Shown here piece by piece: positions 22,810-31,571 of a stretch of 64,000 bases of DNA. Source of the DNA: Bacteroidales bacterium. GTDB taxonomy: Bacteria > Bacteroidota > Bacteroidia > Bacteroidales > Salinivirgaceae. The stretch covers positions 1-64,000 of the forward strand of contig JAAYQU010000031.1 of NCBI GenBank assembly GCA_012519055.1, read 5' to 3'. How positions within the stretch are numbered: position 1 is the stretch's first letter; each line of letters begins with the position of its first letter. The notes under the pieces are model-generated. The model did no database searches. It saw nothing but the letters and a program-made list of their open reading frames with translations, and was not told the DNA's origin. Both the position numbers and the translations under genes were made by a program.

Positions 22810-23598
22810 ATGGGAGCATCAGACATCACGTATATAGGAATGATTTGGGCAATACTGTTGCTGATACCTGTTTTTTTAATAAACTATTTATTTGATTTAA
22901 AGCAGTTTAAGCCTTATGTCGTAGCCGCTATACGAATGATTGCGCAACTTGCTTTCGTAGGAGTTTACTTGCACTATATTTTTGAATGGAACAAGCCTTG
23001 GGTCAATTTTTTGTATTTAGTTGTGATGATTTTTATTGCTGTTTATCAGTCAATTAAACAAACAAAAATACCATTTCGAAGGTTTATATTTCCTGTAATT
23101 TTGGCAACATTTATCCCAACGGTTACTATTGTTCTATACTTCAATTATTTAATTGTTGGAATAAGTGATCTGTTCGATGCCAAATACTTGATTCCTATTG
23201 GAGGAATGATTTTAGGAAACTCAATGAAATCAAATATTATTGCGCTTGAGCGTTTTTATGGGGAGTTATCGACCAATACGCGAGATTATTTGGTTCCAAT
23301 ATCGTTTGGAGCGGACAGAAACAGGGCAGTAAAACCTTTTGTGCGAAAAAGCATTTTAGCCGCCATGAGTCCTATTGTTGCTACAATGTTAACAATCGGA
23401 TTGGTTTCACTTCCGGGCATGATGACCGGACAGATTTTAGGCGGAAGTATGCCCGTAACTGCCATAAAGTACCAAATAGCTATAATGTTGGCAATATTTT
23501 GCTCAAACATTGTTGGCGTAGCGATGACGTTAAAGTTGGTTATTCCCCGTTCGTTCGACTGTTACGATATGCCTATTAAGTTGAAAGTTAAAAGTTGA
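22810..23598 (+). CDS. UPF0014 membrane permease, FetB/YbbM-like
   Basis: A 262-residue polytopic inner-membrane protein with about seven hydrophobic helices. Family-defining segments are YVVAAIRMIAQLAFVGVYLHYIF at the N-terminus, LIPIGGMILGNSMKSNIIALERFY in the centre, and GLVSLPGMMTGQILGGSMPVTAIKYQI near the C-terminus. Together with the preceding ATPase it forms an ABC exporter of the FetAB type, which exports iron in E. coli. Length matches the family. It is the last plus-strand gene before the minus-strand region at 23.8-33.0 kb. Confidence 0.9.
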   Translation: MGASDITYIGMIWAILLLIPVFLINYLFDLKQFKPYVVAAIRMIAQLAFVGVYLHYIFEWNKPWVNFLYLVVMIFIAVYQSIKQTKIPFRRFIFPVILATFIPTVTIVLYFNYLIVGISDLFDAKYLIPIGGMILGNSMKSNIIALERFYGELSTNTRDYLVPISFGADRNRAVKPFVRKSILAAMSPIVATMLTIGLVSLPGMMTGQILGGSMPVTAIKYQIAIMLAIFCSNIVGVAMTLKLVIPRSFDCYDMPIKLKVKS

Positions 23599-23700
23599 AA
23601 GACGACATGCCTCTTCTCTAAAATAGCTACAATTGTTGATTGTTCACTTCGGCTACGCTTGCTTCGACATGTACGCCATCACTTTAAAACTTTGTTTCGT
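23583..23700. repeat. Intergenic word-repeat hairpin DNA
   Basis: Between the convergent fetB-like and barrel genes, short words repeat (GAAAGTTAAAAGTTGAAAG at 23584-23602) and partly pair with CTTTAAAACTTTG (23682-23694); the centre has GTTCACTTCGGCTACGC, echoed near 57.7 kb in reverse orientation. No gene is visible in 23599-23780. Confidence 0.35.
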
Positions 23701-23780
23701 GTTTTTATGTTTGATTTACAGTTAAGATATTTTAATATGATGGTTTTTGAATATTTGTAGCTTGTTGTGTGGTGTTTTTA

Positions 23781-24974
23781 TTAATACTCTCTTTTTACAT
23801 TTCTTTCCATATTTCCTAATCCAATAGTTATATAGTGCATGTTCCCAGACATTCCATGATATTTTTTCTCAAACCTTGGAATAGTGTAGCCATATCTAAT
23901 TCTCATAAACCAGTAACTTGTTTTAGGACTATATTTAGGCGTATGTTTTGGTCCAAATTTTATATCGAAGTTTATTCCAGCAATATATGTTGTTGTAAAA
24001 TTTAATGATACTTCTTTTAGTTCAGGTGTTTTTTCTATATCTTTAGTCGTAGGACTAATATTCATTGTTCCAATACCTGCAAACGGTGATAGTTTAAACC
24101 TATTGCTATTATATGTCGCATAACCTAACGAAGCCTCGAGTAGATAACCCGTAGTTTTAGAACCTTTTTCCCAAGTACCCAAAGAGTAACTAAAATCCTT
24201 TTTTGTTTTATTGTATCTTGTATTGGCTCTGAGATACAATTCAAATTTTTTATAGCAAATATCAAGTGAAACTCCTAATGGGACATTGTTTGTATAGTTG
24301 TCGCTCAAATTTCCAGTGTATATGCCATAACCACTAAAAAGTTCATAAGCTATTCCCCAATTTTCTGGGATTAGTTTATACCTAATGTGCTTTTTTGTAA
24401 AGTCTTCAAATTTACTTTGTGGATATGTTTTAAGAAAATTGTCTGCTTGTTCGTTTAAAGAGTCTTGAGCATAAATATTTTTTAAATCCAATAAAATACA
24501 TTCAAGGTTTAGATCTAATATCTGTTTTGTTTCGGAATCTAAATCGGAATCTTGTATTTGCCCTTTTATCAGTGTTTTATTCTTAAGAGTCATTTCTTTT
24601 AACCTGTCAAAAAGCTTATTGTATGGTTGACGAATACGTATGCAATAATTGTCAACTTTTGCTGGGGCGTAGTTCAGAAGATTTTCTGCTAACTCTGAAT
24701 AATCCTTAGTCCAGTATAAAACAAACCAATATTCTCTTGGATAAAAGGCTATAAAATAATCATCTTCAATTTTTATTAAGTAATCTTTAATTTCCTTAAC
24801 TTTCGCCAAATCTCCCTCAATAAACTTATCCAATAATAATCCCCGACCTTTAGAAATTATTATTGATTTTGAATCTTCATAATTAAGAATCTGTGATCTA
24901 ATACTATCATCTTGACTATAGAGACAATTTGAGAATATTATTAAAATAAATGTGAGTTTAAATACCCTTATCAT
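23781..24974 (-). CDS. Putative outer-membrane barrel protein with helical N-domain, unknown family
   Basis: I start at ATG 24974 (397 residues, beginning MIRVFKLTFILIIFSNCLYSQ, a signal peptide); a longer frame would need TTG at 25001 and overlap the upstream gene. After the signal comes a helical domain (about 25-200; LDKFIEGDLAKVKEIKDYLI), then about 190 residues of alternating aromatic strands ending ITIGLGNMERNVKREY, as in outer-membrane barrels (GIAYELFSGYGIYTG, FELYLRANTRYN, WFMRIRYGYTI). It aligns along its length with the broken gene just upstream (24988-26151). Both look like a lineage-specific family. Function unknown. Confidence 0.65.
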   Translation of the reverse strand: MIRVFKLTFILIIFSNCLYSQDDSIRSQILNYEDSKSIIISKGRGLLLDKFIEGDLAKVKEIKDYLIKIEDDYFIAFYPREYWFVLYWTKDYSELAENLLNYAPAKVDNYCIRIRQPYNKLFDRLKEMTLKNKTLIKGQIQDSDLDSETKQILDLNLECILLDLKNIYAQDSLNEQADNFLKTYPQSKFEDFTKKHIRYKLIPENWGIAYELFSGYGIYTGNLSDNYTNNVPLGVSLDICYKKFELYLRANTRYNKTKKDFSYSLGTWEKGSKTTGYLLEASLGYATYNSNRFKLSPFAGIGTMNISPTTKDIEKTPELKEVSLNFTTTYIAGINFDIKFGPKHTPKYSPKTSYWFMRIRYGYTIPRFEKKYHGMSGNMHYITIGLGNMERNVKREY

Positions 24975-24987
24975 GATAAACAATCGT

Positions 24988-26151
24988 TTAAAATTGTCCA
25001 ATCCCCCAAACTATTGCACATATAACGTAGGGTGTATCGCCTTTTGCATAATGGTCATTGAACTTAAGTATTTTATTATATCCGGCTTCTAATTTTAAAC
25101 TAAAGTATCCTTGTGTATAATGGTATCCGTAGTACATGTTGGGATAACTATACTCATGTAATTTAATTTCTGTGTGAATACCAGCTCCGTAGGTAAATGA
25201 GTCAAAGATTTTATACTCTAAATCATTGTCCTCGGAAGATTTGTACTTATTGCTTTCTAAATTGCTTCCAGATATTGAAACATATGGAGCTAAATGAAAT
25301 CTATCATTTCTAATTATAAAATATCCGCCTTTTATTCCAGCATCTATGTAAGGGAATTTGTCATCCACTTTAAAATCAAGTGTATCTACTTCCGAAACCG
25401 CAATAAAAGGTTCTTTCAATTTCAAGCTTGTTGCATGCATATATAAAGAAGTAAAGACTTTACCAATATTTATATCCATTGCCATATTGAAAGAGGCGTT
25501 GTTTGCAAAGTTCTTAGATAGATCATCTGTTGTAAATATCATACCTGAACCGAATGAGAAACCCCATGAAGCTCTTATCGTTTTTGCTGGCAGAAAGCCC
25601 TTTTCAAATGATTCATACTCTTTGTTTTTAAAATCGCGTTTATAGGATTCAAGTTTTTTGTTATACTCATTATCAGTACCTTCACGCTCAATAAATGTAA
25701 TCAAAATATCAATAAGTCTTTTTGCTTGCTCATTAATCTGTGAACTATTGCAATTTGATAGAATCTGTTGGCTATTTTTCAGAATCATATCTTGGAGTTT
25801 TGGGATTAAATACTGGGAATTAGGATATATAACACGGTCTTTATTCTTCTCATAATCAAGCATAAGCGCGTTTGTTGTTTCTCAATCATTGGCTAACATA
25901 TTGATATAAAAATCCTCTACGTAATAAAAAGATGAGTATGGTCCATCTTTTGTTTGTGCTGTCAGATAATCGTAAATCTCTTTAACTTTAGTTATGTTCC
26001 CATCGTTTAATTCTTTAATAATCAAACGTCTGCCGTTTAGCACTAAAATTTCAGTGCTATCTACGTAAGAGGCGATTTCATTGGCTATTTGTGTAAATGC
26101 GTTACTATACAATAATAGTATTGTAGTTAGTGTTAACAGTGTCTTTTTCAT
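24988..26151 (-). pseudogene. Paralogue of the barrel gene, interrupted by one in-frame TGA
   Basis: Two open stretches lie in the same frame: ATG 26151 to TGA 25882 (89 residues, with signal peptide MKKTLLTLTTILLLYSNAF) and 25881 to 24988. They are separated only by the TGA; the second also has an internal ATG at 25863. Read through, they make 387 residues, close to the 397 of the neighbour at 23781-24974, and match it in order (LNDGNITKVKEIYDYL against IEGDLAKVKEIKDYL; later KNFANNASFNMAMDINIGK against DNYTNNVPLGVSLDICYKK). The stop falls where an aromatic residue is expected (AND*ETT), consistent with TGG changed to TGA. It may be a real nonsense mutation or a base-calling error; TGA is used as a normal stop elsewhere (gmhA). 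Confidence 0.75.
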
Positions 26152-26163
26152 ACGTTTTATCTA

Positions 26164-26466
26164 TTAGTCAGTTACATTAATTGTTACAGTTTTTTCATCT
26201 GATTTTAGTCCATTGTGGGCTCTTAAATCAATAATATAATTTCCTTTTCTTTTATAAATATGGGTAGGATTGGTTTCGTTACCAATAGACATATCTCCAA
26301 AGTTCCATGAATAAGACTTTGCGTCAGTTGAAAGGTTTGTGAATTTTACTTCTTGTCCAGCCTTTGGTTCTTTGGGCTCCCATGTGAAATCAGCGACTGG
26401 TTTTTTTCCACAACTTGTCATAATTAATCCTAAAGCCAACCCCATTAAAATTTCTCTTGCTTTCAT
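26164..26466 (-). CDS. Small PKD-domain lipoprotein
   Basis: A 100-residue protein: lipoprotein signal with lipobox IMTSC (C19), then one PKD (Ig-like) domain filling the rest. The domain has the standard pattern KFTNLSTDAKSYSWNFGDMS, NPTHIYKRKGNYIIDLRAHN and a final strand KTVTINV. PKD domains give protein or glycan contacts at the surface. It is 12 bp upstream of the broken barrel gene, and its ATG lies 17 bp after the attC-like site 26483-26614, the position expected for the first gene of an integron cassette. Confidence 0.8.
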   Translation of the reverse strand: MKAREILMGLALGLIMTSCGKKPVADFTWEPKEPKAGQEVKFTNLSTDAKSYSWNFGDMSIGNETNPTHIYKRKGNYIIDLRAHNGLKSDEKTVTINVTD

Positions 26467-26482
26467 GTGTTTATATTTTTTC

Positions 26483-26614
26483 GTTTAACTGTTGACAATA
26501 TGACAAGTGGCTGTTTGCGGAGCGCGTCTGTATCCCTCGTTGAAAAAGTTTAAAGTGGGCTACAATGCCCGAATTTACTAGAATACCCGCCATTTGCTAT
26601 ATTATGTGTTAGGC
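26483..26614 (-). repeat. attC-like recombination site A (132 bp imperfect palindrome)
   Basis: On the minus strand it begins with GCCTAAC (fits RYYYAAC) at 26614-26608 and ends with GTTAAAC (fits GTTRRRY) at 26489-26483. The arms continue to pair: AATATAGCAAATGGC near one end against AATATGACAAGTGGC near the other (12 of 15 identical as inverted repeat). Length, box sequences, an imperfect stem with unpaired bases, and the place between the stop of one gene (26655) and the ATG of the next (26466) all match integron attC sites. No integrase is present in the window. Confidence 0.6.
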
Positions 26615-26654
26615 AAAGTTTTTCATTCTCATTTATTCTCTTTTCTGCAATCAT

Positions 26655-27398
26655 TTATTTAACCGTAATAGAATTAGACTTTGATAAATCAATTAAATCC
26701 GTATTAAAGATATTTTCGTTTGTCTTAATCTCAATTGATGAAGTCTGATATGTTTCATTGCTAATTTTCTTAAACGATGCAATCTTTGAAGGTGAAGGTG
26801 CTACCTTTTTGGTAATCCTAATATTAGGCATGTCATTAAACATTCCTTCAATATATCCCTCAAATTGATACTCTCCTAAAAAATATGCTGAATTTGGTTC
26901 AATTTTTATCACATTAGATATCGTGTCTGAATATACCAAGTTTTTGTCGCCAGTTAAAATAACTCCAGAAAAAGACAATCCAGCCATTGGGTTATGAAAT
27001 TGATTTACATTTGCTAATCCAATAGTTTTTGTAATTGTTTTTGTCGAATCATTAAATACTATAGATTTAGCAATCGTTGGTTCCTTGATTGTTATTAGCA
27101 GAATTCGATACTCACCTGGCTCAATGTTAAAATACATATTTGTAAATTCATCATCTCTGTAATCAGGTGCGATAATCTTTCCTGTATTTATTTCTTTAAA
27201 ATAGAATTTTACATCCCTTGATGAACTCATATTCATTTTATAATCAGCAGACACGGCTATTATCGCAGTATTAACACTGGAAATCATTGTGTTTTTAATC
27301 TTTGGAACTGTTGATAATTGAACCATACAAGAACTTAAAAGAAGGAATGGTACAATACGTACTAACTTAAAAGAAATCAAGGTTTTAGTTTTAGTCAT
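26655..27398 (-). CDS. Lipoprotein of unknown function
   Basis: A 247-residue protein with a lipoprotein signal whose lipobox is LLLSSC (C24). The mature part is mostly beta strands (VKFYFKEINTGKIIAPDY, FNIEPGEYRILLITIKEPT, YFLGEYQFEGYIEG), suggesting one or two Ig-like or barrel-shaped domains. The stretch NIEPGEYRIL followed by a later FLGEYQF segment resembles carboxypeptidase-regulatory-like folds, but I cannot assign a family. It lies between attC-like sites A and B and so would be a one-gene cassette. Confidence 0.6.
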   Translation of the reverse strand: MTKTKTLISFKLVRIVPFLLLSSCMVQLSTVPKIKNTMISSVNTAIIAVSADYKMNMSSSRDVKFYFKEINTGKIIAPDYRDDEFTNMYFNIEPGEYRILLITIKEPTIAKSIVFNDSTKTITKTIGLANVNQFHNPMAGLSFSGVILTGDKNLVYSDTISNVIKIEPNSAYFLGEYQFEGYIEGMFNDMPNIRITKKVAPSPSKIASFKKISNETYQTSSIEIKTNENIFNTDLIDLSKSNSITVK

Positions 27399-27453
27399 AA
27401 TCTTTATGCTTTAATAATATTTTTTATCGGCTAATGTGTCGACTTAAAATTTT

Positions 27454-27586
27454 GCACAACGTTTTGCGTTAAATTCTAGTTGCCGATTTCGGAGCCGTTT
27501 TCCTGTCGAGCTACACACTGCTGTTGCGGGCTGCGAACTTCTTTGTCCGAACTAAGCCGGCAATTAAATTTAGTGTCGTGTTACCA
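27454..27586 (-). repeat. attC-like recombination site B (133 bp imperfect palindrome)
   Basis: On the minus strand it starts TGGTAAC (27586-27580) and ends GTTGTGC (27460-27454), each one base off the RYYYAAC/GTTRRRY consensus. Inner arms pair well: TAAATTTAATTGCCG against TAAATTCTAGTTGCCG, extended by ...CGGA. It begins 8 bp past the stop of the 475-residue gene and ends 55 bp before the next ATG (27398). Orientation and size are the same as site A. Confidence 0.55.
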
Positions 27587-27593
27587 AACGTAT

Positions 27594-29021
27594 TTATTTG
27601 ATTATAATCTTTTTACTTAATATCTTTTTTTCTGTCTTAACTTGAATAAAGTACATTCCGACAGGAATATCACCAATCCACAATTTATTCTGATTTCCAA
27701 TTATTCTTTTTTGTAATCTTCCTTGCAAATCAATTATTTCAATTGACTGAATATTTTCCAACTCAATGTTTAAATAATCAGATGCTGGATTAGGATATAT
27801 AAAATTTGAAACTTGAATCTCTCTGTCATAAATTCCAGTTGTAGCTTTAAAATTTCCTAGACTATCGGACAATATTAAATACATATCGTATCCACCATTT
27901 GTTAAATAATCCGTAGCACCAATCATTGCAAACTTATTTTCATTTATTTCAATCAATGAACCTGACATTTTATTTCCAGGGTTGTCCAATACTTTTGTAT
28001 ATAAAGTATCGCCAGTATTATTCATTTTAATAAAAAACAAATCACGAATTTGCTCTGCACCATTTGTTCCATCCGATAGATTACCGAATACATATATATA
28101 TCCACTACCTGTTTCAATAATTGATTGCCCAGTACCTGAACAATATAATTCCTCAGAGTCTTCCCATAAATTAATTTGCCGTTCCCATAATATATTTCCA
28201 AGATTATCAATTTTGGAAACTAAAATGTCTTTTCTACTTTTTATTAAATCGTATTTATCTCCAGTAATAATTAATTGATTCGATGTATTTTCAAGCACTT
28301 CATTACCAACATATATTCCTTCATAACTATAAACGGTATCAATTAATGTATTCAATTCAGAATCAACTCTAACTAAAAACAAATTCGGCATTCCATCATT
28401 ATAGCTATATCCAGTAATAACAATATCATCATTACTTGTTTTAATAATATCATTACCATTTTCAAAATCATAATCAGCGAAATTAAATATCAATTCATTT
28501 ATTAGTTCTCCATTAAAACTAATTTGTTTCATTACAATGTCTGAATAGAAAACGCTGTCAATACCACCATCTGGAATTGTATCAATGTGGCTAAAAGCTA
28601 GTTTACTTCCTGTTAACAAGAATGATGTGTCATTATATAAAGTTCCCGAAGAAAAGGAATAATCACTATTATGCTTTATCCAATCAATTTCTCCATTATT
28701 GTTAATTTTCATAATTCCGCCATTTTCTCCAACTAAAATGTATTTATTATCTGGGAGTTGAACAATATCAATTCCAGAATTATAATAGTTAAAATCATAG
28801 GTCTTGGTTAAAATTGTATCACCTTTTAAATTACACTTAACAAAATAGAAAGAATATTCTGCACCCCATCCAAATAATACAAGGATAGAGTCATTTTCTT
28901 TTAATATTTTTTGTCCGACTTCGTTTTGAGTTTTTCCAAAAGTGCGATCAAAATATTCTTGAGAATACGATTTACTTAAAAGTGCAAAAATCAATGTAAA
29001 GATGATGACTAGTTTTTTCAT
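27594..29021 (-). CDS. Secreted repeat protein with T9SS type A sorting domain
   Basis: A 475-residue exported protein: signal peptide (1-20, SKSYSQ), then about 370 residues of repeating strands of the type GDxxLxKTYDFNYYNSGIDIVQLPDNKYILVGENG and DDIVITGYSYNDGMPNLFLVRVDSELN, as in the large outer-surface propeller proteins of Bacteroidota. The T9SS type A signal starts YPNPASDYLNIEL and ends KKIIIK. The gene is strikingly AT-rich compared with mutS2 next to it. The decamer GTTACCAAAC just upstream (29042-29051) is repeated, reverse-complemented, at its 3' side (27580-27589), where attC-like site B begins. Confidence 0.82.
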   Translation of the reverse strand: MKKLVIIFTLIFALLSKSYSQEYFDRTFGKTQNEVGQKILKENDSILVLFGWGAEYSFYFVKCNLKGDTILTKTYDFNYYNSGIDIVQLPDNKYILVGENGGIMKINNNGEIDWIKHNSDYSFSSGTLYNDTSFLLTGSKLAFSHIDTIPDGGIDSVFYSDIVMKQISFNGELINELIFNFADYDFENGNDIIKTSNDDIVITGYSYNDGMPNLFLVRVDSELNTLIDTVYSYEGIYVGNEVLENTSNQLIITGDKYDLIKSRKDILVSKIDNLGNILWERQINLWEDSEELYCSGTGQSIIETGSGYIYVFGNLSDGTNGAEQIRDLFFIKMNNTGDTLYTKVLDNPGNKMSGSLIEINENKFAMIGATDYLTNGGYDMYLILSDSLGNFKATTGIYDREIQVSNFIYPNPASDYLNIELENIQSIEIIDLQGRLQKRIIGNQNKLWIGDIPVGMYFIQVKTEKKILSKKIIIK

Positions 29022-29108
29022 GTGTTCCTCGTTTTTAATATGTTTGGTAACTTATAATTTACGTAACAAATATAATACATTCGTAAATATAAAACTTATA
29101 ACTAATTG

Positions 29109-31571
29109 TTAATTGGAAAGTTTTACAACCGTAATCCCGTCTCCTCCGTGTTCAACATGTTCATCGGATATTTCGGCGACTTTGTTTACCGAACGCAAGT
29201 ATTCTCGTATAACCTGTCTAAGTATTCCGTTTCCGCGACCGTGCAAAATTCGCAGGTCGTGCGAGCCAAACATTATAGCGTTGTCGATAAATTCGGCGAC
29301 AATTTGTATTGCCTCGTCAGCGTATTTTCCTCTCACATCAATATAGGGTTTGAAAGAGAGTTGTTTTTTTGAAAATTCGCTGCTATGCATCGTCGGGCGA
29401 CTTGCTCTCGATTGCTTGCGAGCCTTGTTGTTTGAGATATATTCAAGTTTTTCAGGCGATACCGTGGTTATAAAATCGCCAAAAGCAATAACCGCTGTCT
29501 TTTCCGATATTTCTAATATTTGCCCAATAGTGTTTTGTCCAACAATGCGAACGTAATCGCCTTTCTCATAGCTTTTTATCTCTTGTTCGGAACTCTTTTT
29601 ATTGTTTGCTATTTTATGCTTACGCGCTATTCTGTTGACATGCTCGATACGTTGCTCCAACTCATCTTTGTTTTGGCTGTCTCTGCTCTTTAGATTATCT
29701 CGCAACAGGTCTAAATCCTTACGTGCTTCCGCTGTTTTCTCTTTATCGGCTTGCGACTCTTTGATTTCGCGTATAGTGTTCTCTATCTTCCTGTTAACGC
29801 CGTCTAAAAGTTTTTCGGCTTCGGAGGTTGCCTTTTGCTTAATATCAGATTTTAGTTTTTTTGCCTCATCAAGGAATGTAAGCTGTTTTTGGATAACCTC
29901 TTCCAATCGCTTCTCCTGCTTTCTGATTTGGTCGCGCTTCTCTTCCCAATATCGTTTGTCACGTAATATTTCGCGAAGGTGTTTGTCAAAGTTAACAGTA
30001 TCTTCTCCCGCTCTTTTTTTGGCATCGTCGATTACATCGGGCGAGAGACCAATTTTATGAGCAATTTCGATGGCAAATGAGCCACCGGGCTTGCCCTGTT
30101 CGAGCTTAAATGTTGGCTCAATGCGTTGAGTATCAAACATCATGGCTCCATTCATAATGCCCGATGTTTGCGACGCATAATGCTTTAAGTTGCTGTAATG
30201 CGTTGTGATTACGCCAAATACACGATTTTGGTTTAGTTTATCCAAAATCGCCTCGGCAATGGCTCCGCCAATAATTGGCTCCGTACCGCTACCAAACTCA
30301 TCAATCAAAACCATTGACATTGAGTTGCAATTGCGTAAAGTGTTTTTCATATGTAGCAGGTGCGAGCTGTAGGTCGATAAATCGTTATCAATGCTTTGGT
30401 CGTCACCGATATTTACAAACATTTTTTGGAAAATCCCAAGAGTACTGCTTTCACAAGCTGGGACTAACAATCCGCACTGCATCATATATTGTAAAATGCC
30501 TACTGTTTTGAGTGCCACAGACTTACCGCCGGCGTTAGGTCCTGATATAAGTAAAATTCTGTTTTCTGAGTTCAGTGAAATATCAAGCGGAACGACTGTT
30601 TTCTTCTCGGAAACAAAGTTCAAATGCAGTATCGGGTTAATCGCCAATCGCAAATCGACTATGGGGTCTTCGACAACCTCAATTTTTGTAGCAGTCATAG
30701 ACATTGCCAAAAGAGCCTTTGAACGTGTAAAGTCGAACATCCCAAGAATATTGTAAGACTCCAATAAATCAGGAACATAGGGTCTTATTTCGTCAGCAAA
30801 TGCTATCAGAATACGCCGTATCTCGCGTTTCTCTTCGAGCATATCTTCACGTATCGAGTTGTTTAATTCGACAGCAGCGGAAGGCTCTATATATACAGTT
30901 TTTCCAGTGGCAGACTCATCATGAACTATCCCTTTAATTTGCCGTTTATGTGTAGCTAGTACAGGAATCATTAAGCGACCTTCGCGTATAACTGGTTGTA
31001 AATCAGAATCTACCCAGCCAGAAAGTTGGGCTTGTTTGAAAATCTGTGTTACAGTTTTTGACACATGTTGCTGTTTCTCTGAAATGGAGCGTCTAATTTG
31101 TGCAAGTCCGGGCGATGCGTTGTCGCGTACAGTTGCGTTTTTGCCTATAATTTTATCGCACAGGTCGTAAACAAAGGGGTATAGCTTGAGCTTTTGAGAT
31201 AATTTTGTAAGGTTTGGATACTGTTCTTGTCGCTCATCAGATTTAAAAAAGAGTGCAATTGCTTTTAGGGTTTTTAGCGACATTTTTAGATTTAAAACCT
31301 CTTCGGGAACGGGGAAGGTTCCGTGTGGCTTAATCCTTGCAAATACAGGTCTTAGGTCGTGATAGTTGTCTGTAGGAAAATCGTGTTGGTTTTGAATTAT
31401 TCTTACAAATTCAAATGTCTGGTCGCGTTCTAACAGAACCGAATTAAAGTCGGTCATAAAGGACATTGAGAGAACTAACTCTTTGCCTTGCTCGCATAAG
31501 CATTTGTTTAACAACTTATTGCGAATAATGTCAAATCCTAATTTCTCTTCTATCTCTTTTGGATATAGCAC
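29109..31571 (-). CDS. mutS2: MutS2 ATPase/endonuclease
   Basis: An 820-residue MutS paralogue without the mismatch-recognition domain. It acts on recombination intermediates and, in some bacteria, on collided ribosomes. The ATPase core has Walker A LISGPNAGGKSVALKT near residue 345, Walker B MVLIDEFGSGTEP, and the composite motif THYSNLK. A long coiled coil (about 520-640) separates it from the C-terminal Smr nuclease domain (about 745-820) with LRILHGRGNGILRQVIREYL. The start is GTG at 31571; family members begin at this point with (M)xYPxxxEEKxGF. All domains are intact. Confidence 0.95.
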   Translation of the reverse strand: MLYPKEIEEKLGFDIIRNKLLNKCLCEQGKELVLSMSFMTDFNSVLLERDQTFEFVRIIQNQHDFPTDNYHDLRPVFARIKPHGTFPVPEEVLNLKMSLKTLKAIALFFKSDERQEQYPNLTKLSQKLKLYPFVYDLCDKIIGKNATVRDNASPGLAQIRRSISEKQQHVSKTVTQIFKQAQLSGWVDSDLQPVIREGRLMIPVLATHKRQIKGIVHDESATGKTVYIEPSAAVELNNSIREDMLEEKREIRRILIAFADEIRPYVPDLLESYNILGMFDFTRSKALLAMSMTATKIEVVEDPIVDLRLAINPILHLNFVSEKKTVVPLDISLNSENRILLISGPNAGGKSVALKTVGILQYMMQCGLLVPACESSTLGIFQKMFVNIGDDQSIDNDLSTYSSHLLHMKNTLRNCNSMSMVLIDEFGSGTEPIIGGAIAEAILDKLNQNRVFGVITTHYSNLKHYASQTSGIMNGAMMFDTQRIEPTFKLEQGKPGGSFAIEIAHKIGLSPDVIDDAKKRAGEDTVNFDKHLREILRDKRYWEEKRDQIRKQEKRLEEVIQKQLTFLDEAKKLKSDIKQKATSEAEKLLDGVNRKIENTIREIKESQADKEKTAEARKDLDLLRDNLKSRDSQNKDELEQRIEHVNRIARKHKIANNKKSSEQEIKSYEKGDYVRIVGQNTIGQILEISEKTAVIAFGDFITTVSPEKLEYISNNKARKQSRASRPTMHSSEFSKKQLSFKPYIDVRGKYADEAIQIVAEFIDNAIMFGSHDLRILHGRGNGILRQVIREYLRSVNKVAEISDEHVEHGGDGITVVKLSN

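Follow-up and report, generated by a model that had tools for sequence, protein, structure and literature searches.

A short array of putative mobile cassettes in a Bacteroidales genome, and the integron-type system of Bacteroidota to which it probably belongs

The window, that is, the whole 64,000-nucleotide stretch of DNA analysed here (positions 1 to 64,000 of contig JAAYQU010000031.1, assembly GCA_012519055.1, from a Bacteroidales bacterium of the Salinivirgaceae), contains a block of genes between a fetB-like permease gene and mutS2 in which all six open reading frames (ORFs) counted as genes, of 89 to 475 amino acids, lie on the minus strand (Table 1). Two plus-strand ORFs of 95 and 98 amino acids are antisense inside block genes. 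The GC content of the block, in 500-nt windows, is 0.27–0.34, against 0.40–0.43 inside mutS2, and two of its genes are followed by palindromic sites, here called e1 and e2, which have the same orientation and are approximately 0.84 kb apart on the contig (C31). The common strand, the AT-richness and the two palindromes had been noticed by a first-pass annotation made from the letters alone, and all three observations are borne out. The annotation described the block as an integron-like cassette array lacking an integrase, and named a distinct recombination system as the alternative; the analysis below indicates that this alternative was well founded, and that the block is very probably a small set of mobile cassettes, arrayed as in integrons and belonging to an integron-type system found in Bacteroidota.

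Table 1. Features of the block between fetB and mutS2 and of its flanks, in window coordinates.
Feature	Position	Strand	Basis or remark
fetB-like UPF0014 permease (flank)	22810..23598	+	PF03649, E 6e-71
Third unit, opens at GTT of e2, no recognisable closing site	23781..26486	-	cassette-like start only
Third unit, second related gene	23781-25001	-	blastp
Third unit, first related gene, apparently split in two frames	25882-26151 + 24988-25863	-	blastp
PKD-domain lipoprotein-like gene, third unit	26164-26466	-	PKD_4, E 1.8e-13
Hairpin recombination site e2 (attC-like), 132 nt	26484..26615	-	R1, held out, 58 bits, E 2.3e-12
Cassette 2 (971 nt)	26487..27457	-	end complementarity
Cassette 2 ORF, 247 amino acids, lipoprotein-like by eye	26655-27398	-	inspection by eye
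Hairpin recombination site e1 (attC-like), 133 nt	27455..27587	-	covariance models R1, R2
Cassette 1 (1591 nt)	27458..29048	-	boundaries from end complementarity
Cassette 1 ORF, secreted protein with T9SS sorting domain (Por_Secre_tail)	27594-29021	-	Pfam PF18962, E 6e-13
Left array boundary / cassette 1 start, GTT then ACCAAAC	29042..29051	-	end complementarity to e1
AT-rich spacer, mutS2 stop to first cassette	29049..29108	-	taken as insertion point (attI-like or secondary site), by position only
mutS2 (flank)	29109..31571	-	domains MutS_V, Smr, MSSS

The two sites belong to a family of hairpins that can be recognised by covariance models. The model R1, trained on 13 relatives to the exclusion of both window sites, gives e2 (58 bits, E 2.3e-12) and e1 (23.7 bits, E 8.2e-4) as its top two matches in the 64 kb, and a larger model, R2, whose training set included e2 and excluded e1, scores them at 75 bits (E 8.9e-17) and 50.4 bits (E 6.9e-11) on 7 kb. 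For canonical attC sites, with which R2 could have been compared, a crude look through four IntI loci turned up almost none. The first-pass annotation proposed a search for further copies of the palindromes in the genome. At the DNA level none was found for e1, and for e2 there was one 18-nt match (E 0.6); at the level of the model, R1 has 12 matches in the genome at E below 4e-5, with e2 included and e1 not among the matches listed. An Rfam scan found no family at gathering score in the block and two chance-level matches in block and flank together, none of them at the sites.

The family was reached through a pattern drawn from e2, which has 15 matches in 41 related genomes compared with 10 for a backward control, so that by count alone it hardly surpasses the control; the signal emerged from the alignment, in which the matches align end to end. 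Of the 15, one that was unlike the rest (L040) was dropped and e2 itself (L039) was held out, and the remaining 13 were aligned. Unguided folding of these founders with RNAalifold gives 17 pairs, nine of them with compensatory change, and these pairs plus four core pairs make up the structure of R1, which, at E 0.1, matches 44 of 60 related genomes, 7 of which had contributed sequences to the training set. Among 109 distinct matches, in an alignment that was fitted to the model, 94.2% of the cells are paired, compared with 65.3% in shuffled alignments, and the covariation score is 0.666, compared with 0.149 when shuffled and at most 0.071 in slid controls. The sites are hairpins whose arms are maintained by compensatory change, which is what is asked of an attC-like site.

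With respect to their sequence, the sites differ from the attC sites of classical integrons. The first-pass annotation cited the consensus RYYYAAC and GTTRRRY as the bounds of attC sites, and the sites found here do not conform to it, as both motifs are present in only 2 of 163 distinct sites; what remains are the core letters, AAC in 71 of 71 sites of an independent set and GTT in 67 of 71. The strand choice of classical attC sites is set by extrahelical bases. Where such bases were sought, in alignments fitted to the model without bulges, conserved A.C mismatches were seen: two arm positions are mostly A opposite C (A 0.83 and C 0.85; A 0.98 and C 0.97). On the bottom strand these mismatches become G.T wobbles, so the bottom strand could be the better folder; this complementary strand folds better in 85 of 107 sites, and in 73 of 76 cassettes closed with their own start. 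The usual length of a site is approximately 131 nt, and variants were noticed in L174 and in L166, L167 and L178, several of them of approximately 165 nt, in Flavobacterium enshiense, and others, elsewhere, of approximately 68 nt.

The most informative property of the family concerns the two ends of a cassette. If the units are integron-like cassettes, the bases after the opening GTT of each should pair with those that precede AAC at its own end. In the 52 consecutive pairs of the discovery set positions 1–7 are complementary in 0.56–0.79 of the cases, compared with 0.25–0.50 in shuffled pairs and 0.26–0.53 in a control within single sites. At least five of the seven bases are complementary in 32 of the 52 pairs, and in these 32 the complementarity extends through position 12 and stops at position 13, being broken at position 8, where the start side has A (32/32) and the end side mostly C (26/32). 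The independent set, composed of 71 sites from 21 loci, none of them used in model building, behaves alike: 44 of its 50 consecutive pairs have at least six of seven complementary bases, and the complementarity reaches position 11, with the same break at position 8 (A 44/44, C 33/44). In neither set did any of 5000 shuffles reach the observed value at any of positions 1–7. These ends are complementary although they lie 300–5800 nt apart, and their sequences vary from unit to unit within a genome, yet stay complementary in pairs. The comparison shows that a cassette supplies, from its own two ends, the outer arms of the site, which are 11–12 nt long and have one regular mismatch. By way of illustration, in 76 cassettes, preselected for matching ends and so adding no further evidence, closing with the cassette's own start is always more stable than closing with the start of a neighbour.

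Both cassettes of the window obey this rule. The end of cassette 1, in e1, is complementary in 7 of 7 positions to GTT^ACCAAAC at 29051-29042; of the 45 GTT positions in the 3 kb 5' of e1 no other does as well (the next best has 5 of 7), and the A that the family has at position 8 is present at the start, opposite C. In cassette 2 the bases after the GTT of e1 match the end of e2, before AAC, in 9 of 12 positions, the next best of the 20 GTT positions within 1.5 kb having 6 of 12. The same property bears on how the sites fold. Folded alone, as they are read in the array, neither strand of e1 or e2 clearly surpasses shuffled sequences (z 0.19, 1.12, -1.10 and -0.03), which is explained by the fact that the outer arms derive from the cassette's own start; when closed with that start, the bottom strand of e1 reaches -26.2 kcal/mol (z -5.8, mononucleotide shuffles), and e2 remains hardly above shuffles (z -1.2). 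A fold energy better than that of shuffled sequence is, in consequence, found for e1 with its start, hardly for e2, and for neither site on its own. The notion of an integron-like array stands as regards its logic and is restricted as regards its extent, since boundaries can be placed only from about 29048 to 26487 and the remaining 2.9 kb have no end: a third closing site was sought across the rest of the block (23599-26486) and none was found.

As for the cargo, the product of the cassette 2 ORF has no Pfam match at E 0.1 and is an orphan: among 391 further genomes of the phylum, none has a relative of it at E 1e-8. In the third unit, the second related gene (23781-25001) matches the two halves of the split gene by blastp at E 8e-12 and 4e-14, and they are tandem relatives of unknown family. 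In the only same-genus relative read in that way (G002), the gene downstream of mutS2 resembles, by eye, a proline dehydrogenase gene, and there is no clean empty site.

Outside the window, the sites form arrays. In 20 fetched stretches the strong matches are co-oriented within each stretch, mostly several in a row and from 0.3 to several kb apart, and those on the reverse strand, none above 31 bits, come from reading these palindromes backwards. Among 146 site records, some of which count one site in two overlapping loci, an ORF ends at -60 to 40 nt from the site on the same strand in 102, compared with 19 in the opposite-strand control, and the median distance between stop codon and AAC is 18 nt. 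An all-against-all comparison of cassettes (matches of at least 250 nt) finds repeats inside single genomes, and the only match between genomes, of 258 nt at 78%, joins G003 and Algibacter onchidii and covers a site and the preceding gene end. Two kinds of repeated stretch were observed in these arrays. In G020 (L090, L091, L092 and L093) a unit of approximately 295 nt with inverted repeats and without a gene occupies the crossover point of sites in 12 places, three of the copies being cut by contig ends, and it could possibly be a mini-cassette of promoter type or a parasitic one. In G034 (L079 at 2450, 6321 and 10464; L083 and L084) stretches of 253–336 nt are repeated between cassettes at 95–99% identity, perhaps as another gene-less unit.

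The question that follows is which recombinase would act on these sites. The block had been called integrase-less, and it is true that no recombinase gene adjoins the array or its spacer; the genome does, however, encode a member of a distinct recombinase family, with an intact frame, on a different contig (G000:C45:206-1081), so that the window array is a satellite array. Matches of the integrase type in this genome are listed for contigs C45, C5, C34 and C8. When 22 genomes were searched with TIGR02249, the integron-integrase model of NCBI, no match surpassed its cut-off, all 22 having weaker, mostly Xer-level matches, and no tested member of the family reached it either; the genome-wide integrase search suggested earlier thus yields no canonical integrase and does yield an array-associated recombinase. 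The family is a class of tyrosine recombinases above the Xer level which matches positions 1–180 and 238–315 of TIGR02249 and not the part between, the place of the IntI-specific domain. The active-site residues R, K, H, R, H and Y, presumably catalytic, are invariant in 12 aligned members. The distance between the motifs KDR and HxLRH is 57–63 residues in 40 of 40 rows of the family, 100–101 in 4 of 4 canonical IntI and 64–66 in nine Xer proteins, which means that the family does not have the insertion of approximately 42 residues of IntI.

The family is related to IntI and to XerA. In a quick tree of 72 rows, which left out L169, L181, L201 and L214 (short, split or unplaced) and the low-scoring L224, L231, L232 and L242, the Xer and the IntI proteins form one clade each (SH-aLRT 100 for each), and 39 of the 40 family rows fall under one fork (support 93) that excludes IntI, with L194 outside. 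Membership in XerC/XerD was considered and rejected, given the separate clade of the nine Xer rows and their lower scores with the model A4, 168–197 bits as compared with 308–428 for the 40 family rows (four of which were in the training set of A4). A structure model (pLDDT 82) has the integron integrase 2a3v as its best Foldseek match in the PDB (E 9.6e-16). Most of the full-length members listed carry, in addition, an N-terminal module of approximately 65 residues, in one to three copies by eye. Pfam searches at E up to 1 match it to HARP in 2 of 30 cases and to DUF5710 in 10 of 30, the scores shown being under the cut-offs; there are three further weak HARP matches, and by Foldseek the HARP domain of SMARCAL1 ranks second (E 0.4). 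A HARP identity is a lead to be followed, and such a DUF5710/HARP-like module might bind branched or folded DNA. Two recombinases of approximately 680 amino acids (L199 and L204) seem, by eye, to have more than one copy of it. Near the family, an archaeal contig (Undinarchaeales, L195 8316-10897) has two adjacent recombinases of 270 and 319 bits and no sites of the Bacteroidota type.

The recombinase heads an array in several genomes (G003, G034, G029 and G007). The loci of the best 80 of 590 relatives, which include Winogradskyella, Flavobacterium, Seonamhaeicola, Algibacter, Algoriphagus, Rufibacter and Pontibacter, were scanned, and 21 of the 80, all of them from Bacteroidota, have sites beside the recombinase; several other Bacteroidota recombinase contigs stop less than 1 kb from it. 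Of the 21 loci, 18 have their sites past the recombinase gene, in its reading direction, and three are divergent. The best-matching start of the first cassette, after a GTT, is found 40–330 nt past the stop codon of the recombinase in 17 of these 18 loci and at 930 in the other one, and in several of the 18 the GTT is preceded by a palindrome, so this point after the gene is a candidate attI.

A survey of 392 genomes at least 90% complete, of a phylum taken as Bacteroidota from its named relatives, found sites at E 1e-3 in 181 and the recombinase at E 1e-80 in 113. Sites and recombinase occur together in 97 genomes, while 52 would be expected (odds ratio 14, with no correction for phylogeny). 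In this survey 8 candidates were scored per genome, which makes its counts lower bounds. Among named genomes the maximum is 48 sites, in F. enshiense, followed by A. onchidii (30), W. ursingii (24), S. aphaedonensis (23) and Algoriphagus ornithinivorans (8). In 36 non-Bacteroidota genomes with related recombinases there was one marginal site match in all. It was also observed that in G034, in G020 and in the genome of the window several contigs end in or beside a site or a recombinase gene, as if the assembly broke there, and draft site counts may be too low for that reason. The remark that integrons are rarely discussed for this phylum needs qualifying, for sites of this kind are not rare in it.

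In classical integrons (class 1–3 and chromosomal, with IntI, attI and attC cassettes) the ends of a cassette are complementary and the bottom strand is the better folder, and the Bacteroidota system is alike in both respects. The two also have in common a tyrosine recombinase related to IntI, a point of insertion next to the recombinase gene, cassettes arrayed head to tail in which every gene is followed by a hairpin site, and AAC and GTT at the joints. They differ in that the Bacteroidota recombinases do not have the IntI-specific insertion and, in most members listed, have an extra N-terminal module; in that the sites do not follow the RYYYAAC/GTTRRRY consensus, and have conserved A.C mismatches and cassette-specific outer arms of 11–12 nt with a regular mismatch; and in the common direction of recombinase and cassettes in 18 of 21 loci. 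The window resembles the integrase-less arrays known as CALIN in having two sites and no recombinase nearby, and differs from them in that its sites are of another family and the matching recombinase is elsewhere in the genome. XerA proteins, as far as they are known, use a dif-like site that is fixed. The Bacteroidota recombinases fold like XerA and are, unlike it, tied to cassette arrays; 12 Bacteroidota members tested score 196–238 bits with NF040815, the XerA group, whose name ('site-specific tyrosine recombinase/integron integrase') already unites both functions, and only the recombinase of the window's genome is above the cut-off of 220.

Regarding previous reports, an 'integron-like' subgroup of tyrosine recombinases has been described (Smyshlyaev et al., 2021; PMC8138268), and in the relevant passages of that work its insertion-less members are not linked to cassettes or hairpin sites. 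Passages of PMC8618304 and PMC2426708 count Bacteroidota, or the Bacteroidetes/Chlorobi group, among the phyla with integrons or intI, the latter paper choosing intI by its additional domain or patch, and PMC9668308 states that IntI is recognised by means of two profiles, one of them for the IntI-specific domain. According to passages of PMC9024848, by the authors of IntegronFinder, Salinibacter ruber is the sole member of the Bacteroidetes with a complete integron, others being in Chlorobi and Ignavibacteriae. A word search of PMC8352920 gave no mention of 'Bacteroid-', and full-text searches of an open-access library, outside which preprints and most subscription journals fall, brought up no title or opening abstract that describes the present system.

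The observations could be explained in other ways. The block could belong to a classical integron or CALIN, with canonical attC sites moved by a canonical IntI; the shared overall layout, in which a recombinase and an insertion point go with cassettes that carry hairpin sites, the shared core letters AAC and GTT, and the reports of Bacteroidota integrons in parts of PMC8618304 and PMC2426708 would agree with it. This is improbable in view of the near absence of the paired consensus from the sites (2/163), the missing insertion (motif gaps of 57–63 in 40/40, as opposed to 100–101 in 4/4 IntI), the TIGR02249 matches under the cut-off in 22 of 22 genomes, the separate clade of IntI, and the single complete integron that PMC9024848 names, in passages that give no count of Bacteroidetes CALIN. 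More remote still is the notion of small transposons, in which the complementary ends, which every unit has over 11–12 nt, would be terminal inverted repeats for a transposase: the end sequences differ between units of one genome while being complementary in pairs, they join in one hairpin site and not as two transposon ends, and the units are arranged head to tail, in a single orientation, beside one recombinase. The position of the sites directly past stop codons (median 18 nt to AAC) is what would be expected of RNA structures, terminators or repeats of the repetitive extragenic palindrome (REP) type without a role in recombination, an explanation that would predict neither a unit start complementary to an end 300–5800 nt away nor a link with one recombinase family, and for which the block offers no Rfam family at gathering score; it is just as improbable as the transposons.

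For the window alone, a substantial though lesser chance is assigned to the array being a frozen remnant that is no longer mobile. It has two sites only and its last unit has no end; e1 and e2 score below many relatives, and e2 with its own start folds at z -1.2. On the other hand, both cassettes retain complementary ends, e1 folds strongly (z -5.8), and the genome encodes a family recombinase whose frame is intact.

Several observations weigh against a mobile-cassette system. Twenty of the 52 discovery pairs fail the end rule at 5/7 (6 of these 20 involve the repeated insert in G020), as do 6 of the 50 independent pairs at 6/7, and in one genome (G032, L098) the genes face the opposite way, a gene ending at the site that opens its cassette. 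The co-occurrence statistic ignores phylogeny; 84 of the 181 site-bearing genomes have no recombinase at the strict cut-off, 16 of the 113 recombinase-bearing genomes have no site, and the lower-scoring Bacteroidota relatives L224, L231, L232 and L242 (188–231 bits, among the 80) are also without sites. The scoring of first-cassette starts gave a bonus to GTT and had no shuffled control, and L166, L177 and L184 are weak. The recombinase gene of the window's genome sits at a contig end, which hides any adjoining array, and VIA-align places an archaeal Xer (4a8e, Z 23.8) above IntI (2a3v, Z 20.6) as the closest structure. Finally, what can be read from sequence comprises the covarying hairpins, the pairwise complementary cassette ends, the arrays and the linkage to one recombinase family, whereas recombination itself, circles and strain differences are outside it, and movement is inferred.

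Taken together, these data point to a cassette system of Bacteroidota that would work like an integron and belong to a separate lineage, a branch that is widespread and seems to have been overlooked. Each cassette would hold one or a few genes and end in a hairpin site; the recombinase would excise cassettes as circles by acting on the site's bottom strand in its folded, single-stranded form, and would insert them at the attI-like point beside its own gene or at a secondary position, as in the window, whose cassettes may be mobile. The A.C mismatches, being G.T wobbles on the bottom strand, could favour the folding of that strand. A broader proposal, towards which the balance tips slightly, is that, throughout Bacteroidota, a recombinase lineage that does not have the domain deemed essential for integron integrases captures cassettes by way of folded single-stranded sites, with strand choice encoded by the A.C mismatches that become bottom-strand wobbles; such a system would have had either a second origin, from XerA-like ancestors, or the IntI domain would be a later addition to an older system.

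Integrons are the best-known platform of gene capture in bacteria, and reports of them in Bacteroidota are sparse in the parts of the literature consulted. If the reading given here is correct, sites of such a system are present in 181 of the 392 genomes sampled from a phylum that is among the largest in bacteria, and software that requires the IntI-specific profile, as described in part of PMC9668308, should overlook its recombinase. A large pool of uncharacterised cassette genes would be opened, and the system would offer a natural way of testing what in IntI and in attC is required for cassettes to recombine through a single strand.

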